From assembly GCF_029338235.1 (NCBI RefSeq), contig NZ_CP119785.1, positions 1,054,001-1,118,000 of the forward strand: a DNA stretch of 64,000 bases, read 5' to 3'. The position numbers were made by a program, and so were the translations under genes. Origin of the DNA: Haloarcula rara (lineage in GTDB: Archaea; Halobacteriota; Halobacteria; Halobacteriales; Haloarculaceae). The notes under the pieces are model-generated. The model was given only the letters and a program-made list of their open reading frames with translations, made no database searches and had not been told where the DNA came from. Position 1 is the first letter of the stretch. Every line of letters starts with the position of its first letter. Of the stretch, positions 1,291 to 63,114 are shown one piece after another.

Positions 1291-2076
1291 TCACACGCCC
1301 GAGCGGCCGACCCGGAGCCGGCTCCCCTCCGCGACGGCCTCGTCGGCCTCGACGGGGCCCATCGAGCGGGTGACAAAGGAGCGGACGATCCACGCCTCGG
1401 CGCGCTGGAGGCGGTACTGCAGCGTCGACCGAGAGACGTCGAGCCGGTCGGCGAGTTCGGTCAGCGAGACGTCCCGTGGCGTGCGGTAGTAGCCGTAGTC
1501 GACGGCGGCCTCCACGGCGGCCTGCTGTTCGGGGGGTAACTCGGCGAGCGTGACGGCCTCGTCGGCCCAGTAGGCCGGCTCGCCGAGCTGACGGAACTCG
1601 ACGGTGAGCCCGGGGCGAAGCTCCGCTTCGAGCGCCGAGAAGAGGTCGTCGACGCCGTCGTCCGAGCAAAGCAGGAGCCGCCACTCACAGCGGCTGCCCC
1701 GGCGCTCGGTTTCACAGAGGACGCCCTGACCGACGTGTTCGATGGCGAGTCGAGGGATGGAGTGACAGTCACCGGCTTCCGAGCGGTAGCTGTACACCGT
1801 CCGGCGCCCCGCCTCGCGCGAGATGACCTCGTAGTGCCAGTCGGTCACGCAGTCGCGGGTCCCGATACACTCGGTACACTGGACCGGGCTGTCGAAGACG
1901 TCGTCCAGCCGATCGAGCGCCGCTTCGGGCCCGGCGACCCGTTCGAGGCGCCACATCCCGTCGTCGGTGACGTTGCAGGCGATAGAGCGGGAGTGGGTCT
2001 CGGGGTGGTCGATGAACACGTCCATCAACGGGTCCACGTCCCGGTCGTAATCGATAGTGAAGATGAACTCGCGCAT
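1291..2076 (-). CDS. Bat-type (HTH_10) DNA-binding regulator
   Basis: 261 aa. The C-terminal third (about 165-240, including LAELPPEQQAAVEAAVDYGYYRTPRDVSL split around the helix, then LTELADRLDVSRSTLQYRLQ) matches the bacterio-opsin-activator HTH domain common in haloarchaeal regulators. The N-terminal half (FIFTIDYDRDVDPLMDVFIDH) is a sensor-like region with several Cys residues (CTECIGTRDC) that could bind metal or sense redox state, which is inference. No PAS or GAF domain is seen. A TATA-like TTTATATC lies about 26 nt before the ATG on the plus-strand sequence at 2099-2107, supporting this start as leaderless. The target genes are unknown; tfb follows on the same strand. Confidence 0.85.
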   Translation of the reverse strand: MREFIFTIDYDRDVDPLMDVFIDHPETHSRSIACNVTDDGMWRLERVAGPEAALDRLDDVFDSPVQCTECIGTRDCVTDWHYEVISREAGRRTVYSYRSEAGDCHSIPRLAIEHVGQGVLCETERRGSRCEWRLLLCSDDGVDDLFSALEAELRPGLTVEFRQLGEPAYWADEAVTLAELPPEQQAAVEAAVDYGYYRTPRDVSLTELADRLDVSRSTLQYRLQRAEAWIVRSFVTRSMGPVEADEAVAEGSRLRVGRSGV

Positions 2077-2267
2077 AGCGCAGATACGCAGGCTAGGGGT
2101 TTATATCTCCGGTTGGTTTCGGCACACGCCGAACTCGAGGTGCGAGAGCGGTCACGGTATTCGACGAAAAAGACGGCAGAGAGCGTCAAACGGATTTTTG
2201 CATCACTGTGCGTTCGAGTCGATATCGACGACGCCCCCCGCGATAAATCAGTCAGCGCGATAGCAAA

Positions 2268-3221
2268 CTACAGCCAGTCCGTCTCGGGGTCGATGTAGTT
2301 CGGCGGCGTCTCCCCCGCGAGGCCGGCCCGGACGTTCGCCGCGACGGTGGCGTTCAGGTCCTCGCGGGCCTCCTCGGAGTACCACGCTGCGTGGGGCGTG
2401 ACGACGCAGTTGTCGAGTTCGAGAAGCGGGTTGTCCGGGGCCGGCGGTTCGCGCTGGAGCACGTCGAGACCCGCAGCGGCGATGGTGCCCTCACGCAGGG
2501 CCTCGGCCAGCGCCGCCTCGTCGACGAGCGCCCCGCGGCCGGTGTTGACGAGAACAGTCTCCTCGCCCATCCGTGCCAGCGCGTCGGCGTCGACCATCTC
2601 GCGGGTCTCGTCGGTCACCGGCGCGTGCAGGGAGACGTAGTCGGCACGCGCGTACAGTTCCTCGAGCCAGACCTTCTCGACGTCGGCGTCGGCCATCGCC
2701 TCGGCGTCGACGTAGGGGTCGTAGGCAACCACGTCGACGTCGAACCCGCGCAGCTGCTCGCGGACCCGGCGGGCGATCGGCCCGAAGGAGACCAGACCGA
2801 GGGTCCCACCTCGCAGGCGGTGGACGCGACGGCCCCGCTCCCAGCCCCAGTTTCCGGCGCGAGTGTCACGGTCGTAGGCGGCGACCCCGCGCACGCAGTC
2901 CAGCAACAGCGTCACGGTGTGGGTCGCGACCTCGCGGGTGCAGTAGTCGGGCGCGTTCGTGACGGCGACACCGTGGTCGGCAGCCGCGGCCACGTCGATG
3001 TTGTCAATGCCGACACCGGCCCTGGCGACCACCTGCAGGTCGTCAAGCGCCTCGAAGGCGTCGCGCCCCACCGGGGTGTTCACGTCGACGACAAGCCCGG
3101 CGGCGTCGGCGGCAGAACCCAGCATCTCCTCGCCGTCAGCGACGACGACCTCGGCGTCGAGGCGGTCACGGAGCAGGGCGGCGTCTATCATCGGGTCATC
3201 GCTTGCAACCACACGGTCCAT
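2268..3221 (-). CDS. D-2-hydroxyacid dehydrogenase (C-terminal binding protein/PGDH family)
   Basis: 317 aa. NAD(P)-dependent oxidoreductase of the D-isomer 2-hydroxyacid dehydrogenase family. Visible family signatures are the nucleotide loop GTLGLVSFGPIARRV, the catalytic Arg region VNTGRGALVDE, the Glu region LDVLQREPP and the catalytic His in VVTPHAAWYSEEARE. The open frame runs much further upstream, antisense to the L15e gene, but the MDRVVASDD start is preceded by CTTATC about 27 nt away, consistent with a leaderless transcript. It lacks the ACT domain of full-length SerA, so C-terminal binding protein-like or phosphonate/hydroxypyruvate-type activity is as likely as 3-phosphoglycerate oxidation. 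Confidence 0.88.
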   Translation of the reverse strand: MDRVVASDDPMIDAALLRDRLDAEVVVADGEEMLGSAADAAGLVVDVNTPVGRDAFEALDDLQVVARAGVGIDNIDVAAAADHGVAVTNAPDYCTREVATHTVTLLLDCVRGVAAYDRDTRAGNWGWERGRRVHRLRGGTLGLVSFGPIARRVREQLRGFDVDVVAYDPYVDAEAMADADVEKVWLEELYARADYVSLHAPVTDETREMVDADALARMGEETVLVNTGRGALVDEAALAEALREGTIAAAGLDVLQREPPAPDNPLLELDNCVVTPHAAWYSEEAREDLNATVAANVRAGLAGETPPNYIDPETDWL

Positions 3222-3461
3222 ATGCGAACCGAACAAGTCTGCGAAGATAAGGGCTCCAGTGAGTTCCCAGCGGTCGGGAACGGCGTTTGCGGTACTGTCG
3301 CACGGTCGAGCGGCTTCGAACCGTTTAAGGCCGCGACTGTGGAACTGTCGACAACTCGCTGGACGACGGGCACCAGCGGGCACCTGCGTGTGCAGGTCGG
3401 GATGTGAGTCGCTGACGCTACAGAGGCGACTTGAACCACGCAACGCCCGTGGTGAAACACA

Positions 3462-4052
3462 ATGGCACGAAGTGCATACTCGTACATCCGAGACGCATGG
3501 CAGACCCCCAAGGAGGGGAAACTGGCCGAACTGCAGTGGCAGCGCCAGCAGGAGTGGCGCGACGAGGGGTCGGTCGTTCGTATCGAGCGCCCGACCCGCC
3601 TCGACAAGGCCCGCTCGCAGGGGTACAAGGCAAAGCAGGGTATCGTCGTCGCCCGCGTCTCCGTCCGCAAGGGCAGCGCGCGCAAGCAGCGACACAAAGC
3701 CGGTCGACGCTCGAAGCGACAGGGTGTCACCCGCATCACCCGCCGGAAGAACCTCCAGCGCGTCGCCGAGGAGCGCGCCGCGCGGGTCTATCCGAACCTC
3801 CGGGTGCTGAACAGCTACTCCGTCGGCCAGGACGGCCGACAGAAGTGGCACGAGGTCATCCTCGTGGACCCGGAACACCCCGCCATCCAGAACGACGACG
3901 ACCTCAACTGGATCTGTGAACCGGACCAGGCCGACCGCGTCTTCCGCGGCCTGACCGGCGCCGGCCGCCGCAACCGCGGTCTGAGCGGCAAGGGCAAGGG
4001 CACGGAGAAGACCCGACCCTCGATTCGCTCGAACAGCGGCAAAGGGAAGTAG
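3462..4052 (+). CDS. rpl15e: 50S ribosomal protein L15e
   Basis: 196 aa, the usual length. This archaeal/eukaryotic large-subunit protein is recognisable from MARSAYSYIRDAW at the N-terminus, the basic segment VSVRKGSARKQRHKAGRRSKRQG and the conserved RVLNSYSVGQDG...WHEVILVDP block. It ends in a Gly/Lys-rich tail (GKGKGTEKTRPSIRSNSGKGK). It is one of the few basic proteins in the window, as expected for a ribosomal protein. It is divergent from the dehydrogenase gene. A hairpin-rich block begins two bases after its stop codon. Confidence 0.97.
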   Translation: MARSAYSYIRDAWQTPKEGKLAELQWQRQQEWRDEGSVVRIERPTRLDKARSQGYKAKQGIVVARVSVRKGSARKQRHKAGRRSKRQGVTRITRRKNLQRVAEERAARVYPNLRVLNSYSVGQDGRQKWHEVILVDPEHPAIQNDDDLNWICEPDQADRVFRGLTGAGRRNRGLSGKGKGTEKTRPSIRSNSGKGK

Positions 4053-4053
4053 A

Positions 4054-4201
4054 GCGAGGCGTCGAACGAAGAGGGACCGACGGTCCCTCAGGCAGTCGAG
4101 CGGCCGTGCCGCTCGACGACGGAGCGAGACGCCTCGGAGCGGAACGGTGAGCGGTGTACGGTCGCTCGCGACCGCATGAGACGAACGGTGTGCAACACCG
4201 T
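4054..4201. repeat. Hairpin-rich block directly after rpl15e
   Basis: This block has no gene. An outer stem (CGAGGCGTC at 4055-4063, GACGCCTCG at 4128-4136) encloses two perfect small-loop hairpins: 4071-4089 (GAGGGACC, loop GAC) and 4095-4117 (10-bp stem, loop CGT). Two more follow at 4159-4174 (CGGTCGC, 2-nt loop) and 4185-4201 (ACGGTGT, loop GCA). The first bases closely resemble the sequence after the stop codon of the small gene at 62675-62827. It may terminate or stabilise the rpl15e transcript, or it may be a dispersed repeat. No T-tract follows. Confidence 0.7.
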
Positions 4202-4303
4202 GAGTCAGCGAACCGTGGAGCACACGCCCGATTTTCGCGGTTTCCTCGCAGCTACATAGCACTCCCGTGAGCCACATGGACAAATATGACAAACTAATAG
4301 CAA

Positions 4304-43691: not shown

Positions 43692-43996
43692 GACTGGCTC
43701 CGGTCGGGGGCCTCGCTGCGCTCCTCAGTCGCTTCGCTCCTTGCGGTGCTTGCGTCGTCCACCTTCCCGGAGCCAGTCGCCCCTTTCAGTCCCGCCCGTA
43801 GCCGGTTGACCAGCCGACTTGGGTGGGACTGAAAGGGGCCGCGCTCTCGACGAAGCACGGCGTTCGCAAGAGCGAAGCTCTTGCGCAGCCCATCAGAAAT
43901 CTTCGATTTCTGAGGACGAAGTAAGCACTGGAGCGAACGAAGTGAGCGAAGCGCGCAACGAGCCGCGCGAGTCGAGAGCGCGGGGGCTTTCTGGCT
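43678..43996. repeat. Inverted-repeat element copy A (MITE-like, 319 bp)
   Basis: Perfect 14-bp terminal inverted repeats (AGCCAGAAAGCCCC at 43678-43691; its complement at 43983-43996). The arms are imperfectly palindromic: CCCCTTTCAGTCCCGCC near 43780 pairs with GGTGGGACTGAAAGGGG near 43822-43838. The right arm holds two more hairpins with AAGAGC-GAA-GCTCTT and CAGAAATC/GATTTCTG. No coding frame. A second, longer copy is 1.8 kb away. A core of about 32 bp starting GTGGGACTGAAAGGGGCCGC is almost identical in both. Confidence 0.85.
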
Positions 43997-44102
43997 CTCC
44001 CGCACCGCTGCAGTAGCGTTCACAAAAGCAGGTCCATCGTTTCCTAGCCGCAATTTGGGTCGATTGCACACTGCTTTTGACGACCCAACCCTACGTGCGA
44101 CT

Positions 44103-45435: not shown

Positions 45436-45815
45436 AGCCAGAAAGCCCCGGTTCGCTTCGGTCGAGGGCTTCGCTGCGCGTGGTTCGAGAGAGCAAATCT
45501 CTCTCGTCATCTGCTCACGGGTCGGAGGCCCGTTCGCAGGTTCGTGGGACTCTGCGAGTCCCACGCTCATCACGAAAGGCGCCACGCGCCTTTCGAACGA
45601 CTTCGCTCACTCCGTTCGGTCCAGTGCTTGTGTCAGCCGTCTTCCCGGAGCGAACCGCCTCTTTCGGTCCCACCCCGGCGCTGTTTAACCAACCGGCACG
45701 GGTGGGACTGAAAGGGGCCGCACTCTCGACGAAGCCCGGCGACGCAAGCACCGCAAGCCAGCGGCTGAGGAGCGCAGCGAGCCGCGCGAGTCGAGAGCGT
45801 GGGGGCTTTCTGGCT
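45436..45815. repeat. Inverted-repeat element copy B (MITE-like, 380 bp)
   Basis: Same 14-bp terminal repeats as copy A (45436-45449 and complement at 45802-45815) and the same core (GTGGGACTGAAAGGGGCCGC at 45702-45721, then ACTCTCGACGAAGC). The left arm is longer and holds extra hairpins: GAGAGA/TCTCTC near 45488, GTGGGACT-CTGCG-AGTCCCAC near 45543-45563, and CGAAAGGCGC-CAC-GCGCCTTTCG near 45575-45597. No coding frame. It fills most of the 532-nt gap between Sec61-beta and the next gene. Confidence 0.85.
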
Positions 45816-62567: not shown

Positions 62568-62674
62568 GCTCTTGTGACCGGTAGCGGGCCGGCCGACTTG
62601 AGACTGTCCCAGCGCGGCCCGTTAGTGTCAATAATTAACACACTGTAGTCCCTAGGGGAAAACGGTGAGCCAAT

Positions 62675-62827
62675 ATGTGTCACCACAGAGGCGATATCCC
62701 CGAGGAAATGCCCGAATGGACGATGGAGCGCGAGGAGACAGCCGACGAGGCTGACGGGGAGGAACTGCCGGAGTTCCTCAACGAAGCGGACGAGGAGGTT
62801 TCGGTGTTGACCGACGGTGGGGAGTAG
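62675..62827 (+). CDS. Small acidic protein, 50 residues
   Basis: 50 aa: MCHHRGDIPEEMPEWTMERE, then ETADEADGEELPEFLNEADE and EVSVLTDGGE. The Cys-His-His near the start could bind metal; the remainder is very acidic and helical. The composition matches this proteome and a conserved-looking start supports a real gene. A hairpin-rich block begins one base after the stop codon. Function unknown. Confidence 0.62.
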   Translation: MCHHRGDIPEEMPEWTMEREETADEADGEELPEFLNEADEEVSVLTDGGE

Positions 62828-63114
62828 CGAGGCGTCGAACGGAGAGACGCCTCGAAGCGACGCGGTGAACGTAGTGAGCCGCGGAGCAGTAGCGAGGACG
62901 CGAACGGAGCGAGTGTCCTCGAAACAGTGAGCCAGAAAACGGCCGATTTTTCGCGGCGGGTTCGGCCTCGAAACCGGCCCCTCGGACGGGCCGGAATCCA
63001 GGCCGTGTTTCGCACCGGCTTTTCCGCCCGATTTTTGGCCCAAAACTGCCATTATTTCATATAATTCGGCTATTTTGTGGAAATATACATATAATGGTGG
63101 GGCGTAGGGGTGGT
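62828..63114. repeat. Hairpin-rich block then AT-rich promoter gap
   Basis: 62828-62854 forms a 9-bp stem (CGAGGCGTC/GACGCCTCG) starting immediately after the previous stop codon; a second stem pairs CGAGGAC (62893-62899) with GTCCTCG (62915-62921). The bases closely match the start of the rpl15e 3' block. From about 63040 the sequence is AT-rich, with CATATAATG at 63086-63094 about 25 nt before the zinc-ribbon ATG. No gene is seen. Confidence 0.7.

Follow-up and report, generated by a model that had tools for sequence, protein, structure and literature searches.

A probable REP-like family of hairpin repeats, often placed at stop codons, in the haloarchaeon Haloarcula rara

Bacterial REPs of the GTAG and CGTC types are short intergenic palindromes that form arrays near stop codons, and the GTAG REPs lend their TAG to neighboring genes as a stop codon (PMC3733652). 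Among the haloarchaea, the SMRs of Haloquadratum walsbyi have been described as transposase-free mobile repeats, whose mobilization is called enigmatic in the cited part of that account; the same part relates the PATEs of this organism to IS605-type ends, notes that SMR-A types insert into other elements, and describes no placement at stop codons (PMC3119063). In Haloferax, the intergenic terminator motif is a T-stretch ending at C, and RNA hairpins have been located upstream of the RNA 3' ends of Haloferax volcanii. The one hairpin tested there did terminate transcription, but it lies in a coding region and is not presented as a repeat family, and the motif GAACG is absent from the main text of that study (PMC7237163).

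The repeats described here come from a window of 64,000 nucleotides of the H. rara genome (positions 1,054,001 to 1,118,000 of contig NZ_CP119785.1) and have something in common with each of these systems. As in bacterial REPs, they are short, repeated intergenic palindromes that occur in arrays near stop codons and carry a TAG used as a stop. However, no RAYT was found for this archaeal family, it lacks the GTAG end, its tip and mismatches are conserved while the stem varies with compensation, and the members of an array are co-oriented. To the SMRs and PATEs they can be likened by description only, as transposase-free mobile haloarchaeal repeats, and to the Haloferax hairpins as RNA hairpins near transcript ends. 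The family is best placed as a variant of the REP kind, one that works like a REP but departs from it in its end, its stem, and the lack of a RAYT. It is apparently undescribed: searches by sequence motif and by topic, in literature mainly outside subscription journals, found no published description of the motif. The reading that we favor, and regard as fairly probable, is that of a REP-like haloarchaeal repeat that inserts, gains and loses units, is probably transcribed in the form of 3'-UTR hairpins, and has a TAG that can serve as the stop codon of a gene, with a function that we infer below.

The initial annotation held that two unrelated genes, rpl15e and a 50-codon open reading frame (ORF), carry the same hairpin at their stop codons. 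This was borne out, as a 9-bp stem with the arms CGAGGCGTC and GACGCCTCG follows both TAG codons (Table 1). The surrounding blocks, referred to here as A (rpl15e) and B (50-codon ORF), are not identical: the outer stem is common to both, and the inner and downstream hairpins differ. In block B, hairpin 1 has a simple 9-bp stem and the loop GAACGGAGA, and two similarly built hairpins lie downstream; the last of these retains its TAG, even though it is not the stop of the gene. In block A, ∼47 nt of the outer loop consist of two perfect inner hairpins. The predicted RNA folds are strong, at −52.5 kcal/mol for positions 4050 to 4140 (z score of −5.2) and −52.2 kcal/mol for 62825 to 62930 (z score of −5.7), with 0 shuffled sequences folding as well in either case; the remainder of block A (4139 to 4211) folds weakly in comparison with shuffles (z score of −1.7).

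Table 1. Genes, hairpins, and T-tracts of the two blocks (window coordinates)
Feature	Position	Strand	Details
rpl15e (eL15) gene	3462..4052	+	ORF; stop TAG 4050-4052; orthologues in genus and family 72-98% identical
Block A outer hairpin	4055..4136	+	Arms CGAGGCGTC (4055-4063) and GACGCCTCG (4128-4136); loop starts GAACG, ends CGGAGCGA
Block A nested hairpins (two, perfect)	4070..4118	+	GAGGGACC/GGTCCCTC and GTCGAGCGGC/GCCGCTCGAC, within outer loop
Block A further hairpins	4139..4211	+	Include GAC-GA-ACGGTGT-GCA-ACACCGT-GA-GTC, about 4180-4206
Probable T-tract terminator, CCGATTTTC	4227..4235	+	Downstream of block A
50-aa ORF (MCHHRGD...LTDGGE)	62675..62827	+	Stop TAG 62825-62827; kept in related species
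Block B hairpin 1 (type HP1)	62828..62854	+	CGAGGCGTC-GAACGGAGA-GACGCCTCG; arms 62828-62836 and 62846-62854; abuts stop codon
Block B hairpin 2 (type HP2)	62857..62887	+	GC-GA-CGCGGT-GA-AC-GTA-GT-GA-GCCGCG-GA-GC; tandem GA mismatches twice
Block B second HP1 unit	62890..62921	+	TAG-CGAGGACGC-GA-AC-GGA-GC-GA-GTGTCCTCG
Probable T-tract terminator, CCGATTTTTC	62945..62954	+	Downstream of block B

The expectation that the shared word itself would be enriched did not hold. There are exactly two copies of the 14-mer CGAGGCGTCGAACG in the window and three in the 3.28-Mb genome (G000; G and L numbers denote genomes and loci), and the third copy (L001) lies in an apparent coding sequence, without the second arm or a hairpin. 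Judged by this word alone, the likeness could even be taken for a chance resemblance between stems that, like the genome, are rich in GC, given that with 2 mismatches allowed the window yields 5 matches to the bare 14-mer where 4.95 are expected; this explanation has next to no probability, being refuted by the reversed-pattern controls and the strict covariation described below and by the restriction of the family to one order. What is kept, as far as sequences can tell, is the architecture, namely the tandem GA mismatches, the GNA-type triloop, and the TAG at the left edge, with arms that are free to vary with compensation. The matching arms of blocks A and B are one choice among many.

The family follows the pattern TAG, then CGAGG-N4-GA-XY-GNA-Y'X'-GA-N4'-CCTCG, where N4 and XY vary and covary and the tandem G·A mismatches and the triloop, mostly GNA, are fixed. 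The predicted repeat unit of ∼65 nt consists of TAG, HP1, AA, and HP2 (GCGGAACGGC-GA-AC-GNA-GT-GA-GCCGTGGAGC) and reads TAG-HP1-AA-HP2-(GAGCAG); the apical motif is the same in HP1 and HP2. The generalized loop GAACGNAGYGAG has 82 copies in G000, compared with 3 matches to reversed controls, and variant loops, such as GACCGAAGGGAG and GAGCGCAGCGAG, conform to GA-XY-GNA-Y'X'-GA. The pattern GAGGN4GAN7GAN4CCTC, in which N4 and N7 are unconstrained so that pairing is not presupposed, was matched 51 times in G000 (3 in reversed controls) and 47 times in G009 (1 in reversed controls). Among the 47 distinct G000 matches, all six variable pairs are Watson-Crick in 35, 44 close the GA mismatch with a C-G or T-A pair, and 32 have a GNA triloop. 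Paired cells account for 96% of the total, versus 73% after shuffling and at most 48% after sliding, and the covariation score is 0.572, versus 0.136 and at most 0.105, respectively. In a motif-blind sample of 424 kb, hairpins of this shape had GA/GA as their commonest 2x2 mismatch (10 instances versus 0 in reversed sequence); TC/TC, its complement, marks the same sites. These pattern counts, pairing and covariation values, and mismatch frequencies show the element to be a hairpin whose tip is constant and whose stem changes freely. With four outer and two inner pairs varying with compensation, it is not a conserved palindrome in the REP sense.

Two other assignments of the hairpin were considered and rejected. 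A k-turn or k-loop (an L7Ae site) formed by GA-ACGNAGU-GA is at odds with the covariation of the inner two positions as base pairs, which makes the mismatch a symmetric 2x2 one with no bulge. Likewise, the hairpin does not belong to a known Rfam family, as no covariance model matched it above its gathering score: at the eight loci searched, the models recognized only tRNA and the eL15 leader, with nothing above threshold in the window at 62600 to 63100. The leader itself (eL15-Euryarchaeota ribosomal protein leader) lies upstream of rpl15e at 3383 to 3442 of the window (L094, 1422 to 1481; 38.8 bits).

The sampled pieces of G000 contain 149 hairpins, 133 of them outside coding sequences, which group into 69 clusters of one to six hairpins each. 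Of 56 neighboring pairs within 80 nt, 55 are on the same strand and 1 is on the opposite strands, with a spacing of mostly 32 or 35 nt. Relative to the upstream gene, 57 of the 69 clusters are in the sense and 11 in the antisense orientation. The loci were chosen by motif and not by strand, so this bias stands; the gene calls, made with an in-house script, miss some genes, and some of the antisense clusters may follow such genes. Clusters that start at an ORF stop (−4 to +6 nt, with a peak at 0 nt) number 27 in the sense orientation versus 1 in the antisense. In 24 of these 27 the stop codon is TAG, which ends only 124 of 399 genes (31%) in a motif-blind sample (P = 3e-9). Of the 20 copies at stops, 15 have a TAG before the hairpin, as do 11 of the 23 copies elsewhere; because it accompanies about half of the copies that are not at stops, the TAG appears to belong to the repeat.

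The same genes in related species are often devoid of the blocks. Orthologous rpl15e genes of the genus and family end with TAA in most of the flanks examined, and block A is missing from every other rpl15e 3' flank compared. In G009, the closest species compared (98% protein identity), the flank reads TAA-CGCCGGCCGTTTTTCC, with the T-tract CCGTTTTTCC near the stop, versus TAG, ∼170 nt of hairpins, and then CCCGATTTTCGCGG in G000; the flank in G025 has a smaller palindrome unlike block A. The 50-codon ORF (MCHHRGDIPEEMPEW...LPEFLNEADEEVSVLTDGGE) is conserved in G009, G025, G007, G006, and G014. Block B is missing at this gene in G009, G025, G007, and G014, and the G006 sequence is interrupted by Ns at the respective position; in G009, G007, and G014, a T6 tract is found within ∼15 nt past the stop. 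Homology of the flank ends at the stop codon, while block B matches dozens of other sites across the genus, mostly at 75 to 90%. The proposal that the block is a mobile or convergently maintained 3'-end module therefore holds in part: it is a repeated hairpin at stops, separate from the genes and mobile on the evolutionary time scale, absent at the corresponding sites of relatives and with 27 of 69 clusters starting at an ORF stop in the sense orientation, but the shared word is not its unit.

The sense orientation, the adjacency to stops, and the strong computed RNA folding would all suit a transcription terminator or 3'-processing signal that was selected and repeatedly recruited at gene ends, and a hairpin in a Haloferax reporter terminated 59% of transcripts (PMC7237163). 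Against this, T4+ tracts are about equally frequent in 3' regions with and without hairpins, orthologous genes manage without hairpins and have a T-tract soon past the stop, and most gene ends are bare, with such hairpins at only 4 of 168 in a motif-blind sample. A T4+ tract occurs within 120 nt past the last hairpin in 22 of the 69 clusters, at a median distance of 60 nt; the family does not show the T-run directly after the hairpin that characterizes intrinsic terminators. The T-tract statistics do not support a termination role, and we consider this explanation unlikely. The peak at 0 nt could alternatively point to an element acting in translation, where the abutting hairpin slows termination or ribosome release and thereby tunes the upstream gene; in E. 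coli, ribosomes reportedly stall at REPs that lie no more than 15 nt from a stop (PMC12306157). Such a role is quite improbable here, as the presence of the hairpins at rpl15e and the 50-codon ORF is species-specific and many hairpins are array members situated farther downstream.

Several loci are informative on turnover between close species. A 62-nt HP1-HP2 unit present at G009 L175 is missing at G000 L077. The pair G009 L182 and G000 L156 differs by the loss or gain of a unit between TAGCGAGG repeats: in L182, additional sequence separates two CGAGG repeats, and the identical downstream hairpin sits on the stop in L156, which can be read as a route to differing arms at shared sites. At G000 L155, TAG and the hairpin come 15 nt earlier than at G009 L180, and the protein is five residues shorter, consistent with the repeat having supplied the stop codon of the gene. 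In six pairs of sites shared by G000 and G009, picked by eye from alignments, the arms are identical at only 8 of 50 positions, but 74 of 74 pairs are Watson-Crick; the coding flanks of four of these pairs, those that could be aligned without gaps, are identical at 54 to 58 of 60 positions. These comparisons support turnover of the units as cassettes; no clean duplication of the target was established. The sequences show that the hairpin is the conserved entity, that the presence of a block differs between close species, that arrays gain and lose units, and that the TAG is often the stop of the upstream gene. It is possible, if somewhat doubtful, that the fixed tip (the tandem G·A, two pairs, and the GNA triloop) is recognized by the ribosome or by some protein while the stem is exchanged between species through cassette turnover and the cassette supplies the stop, which would make it a mobile 3'-end regulatory module.

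Another type of insertion is suggested by the two-hairpin piece GAGGGACC..GGTCCCTCA.GCAGTCG.GCGGC..GCCGC.CGACGACGG, which is found at 4070 to 4118 of the window. Related pieces are present at L047 and in G009 (L173 and L182), within other array hairpins and beside ACGG, as if inserted into them.

The short palindromes with fixed internal mismatches, the intergenic arrays, and the terminal TAG that often serves as a stop, as in GTAG REPs (PMC3733652), raise the question of whether these are bacterial-type GTAG REPs moved by a RAYT (REP-associated tyrosine transposase) on single-stranded DNA. We give this very little credence: G000 has only one Y1_Tnp protein, an ordinary TnpA beside TnpB, the motif-rich genomes G007, G001, G025, and G039 have no Y1_Tnp match, and the stem differs between copies. 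In addition, among the copies with a TAG, only 8 of the 15 at stops have a G directly in front of it (8 of 11 elsewhere). Mobilization of the RAYT/IS200 kind was rejected, as the abundance of the motif is not linked to the presence of Y1_Tnp, and no transposase or insertion enzyme for the repeat was identified. The one Y1 transposase that G000 yielded, a TnpA of 137 aa, is directly followed by a TnpB-like ORF of 413 aa (L201, G000:C1:2258001-2262500, positions 1886 to 3545).

The motif GAACGNAGTGAG is present in 57 of the 60 sampled genomes of the order to which the window belongs, mostly far above controls, and in the rest of the phylum it mostly stays close to background. Base composition, the eL15-Euryarchaeota leader, and the Haloferax-like T-tracts point to Halobacteriales as this order. 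The same tip is carried on other stems, with no TAG-stop anchoring, in another family and in a second genus of the same family as the window, and the array anchored at stops therefore appears to be a local specialization.

Two further repeat classes share this tip. The second class, found at 43785 to 44076 and 45467 to 45767 of the window and at L008, L010, L039, L058, and other loci, is MITE-like, located in the middle of intergenic regions in both orientations; it consists of CCCCTTTCAGTCCCACC...GGGTGGGACTGAAAGGGG, followed by AAGCACTGGAGC-GAACGNAGTGAG-CGAAG, and is closed by GGGGCTTTCTGGCTG, some copies having CAGCCAGAAAGCCCC at the opposite end. In the third class, located 3' of tRNA-like ends (L004, L029, L030:2560-2700, L034, L036, L046, L069, and L070), the tip lies in a hairpin both sides of which repeat the tRNA T-arm sequence (GGATTCGAACC...GGTTCGAATCC).

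GNA triloops with flanking tandem G·A mismatches are unusually stable in single-stranded DNA, as they are in RNA. Units of the REP-like repeat may arrive by recombination or by copying via single-stranded DNA. They would then persist mainly in the sense orientation after stop codons, where they may be harmless or somewhat useful when transcribed into hairpins of the 3' UTR, ahead of the terminator; any benefit would most plausibly come from slowing 3' exonucleases or from an effect on ribosomes at the stop. Alternatively, the sense bias could stem from the insertion mechanism rather than from selection at the RNA level.

Bacterial REPs of the GTAG type are tied to RAYT transposases. The family described here resembles REPs with conservation reversed, having a constant tip and a variable but nearly always paired stem, and appears to thrive without a RAYT in an archaeal order, strongly oriented and anchored at stops. 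The pairs of occupied and empty sites provide a natural set for asking whether 3'-UTR hairpins alter archaeal mRNA ends, stability, and translation termination, and they also bear on how repeats with no known transposase move.
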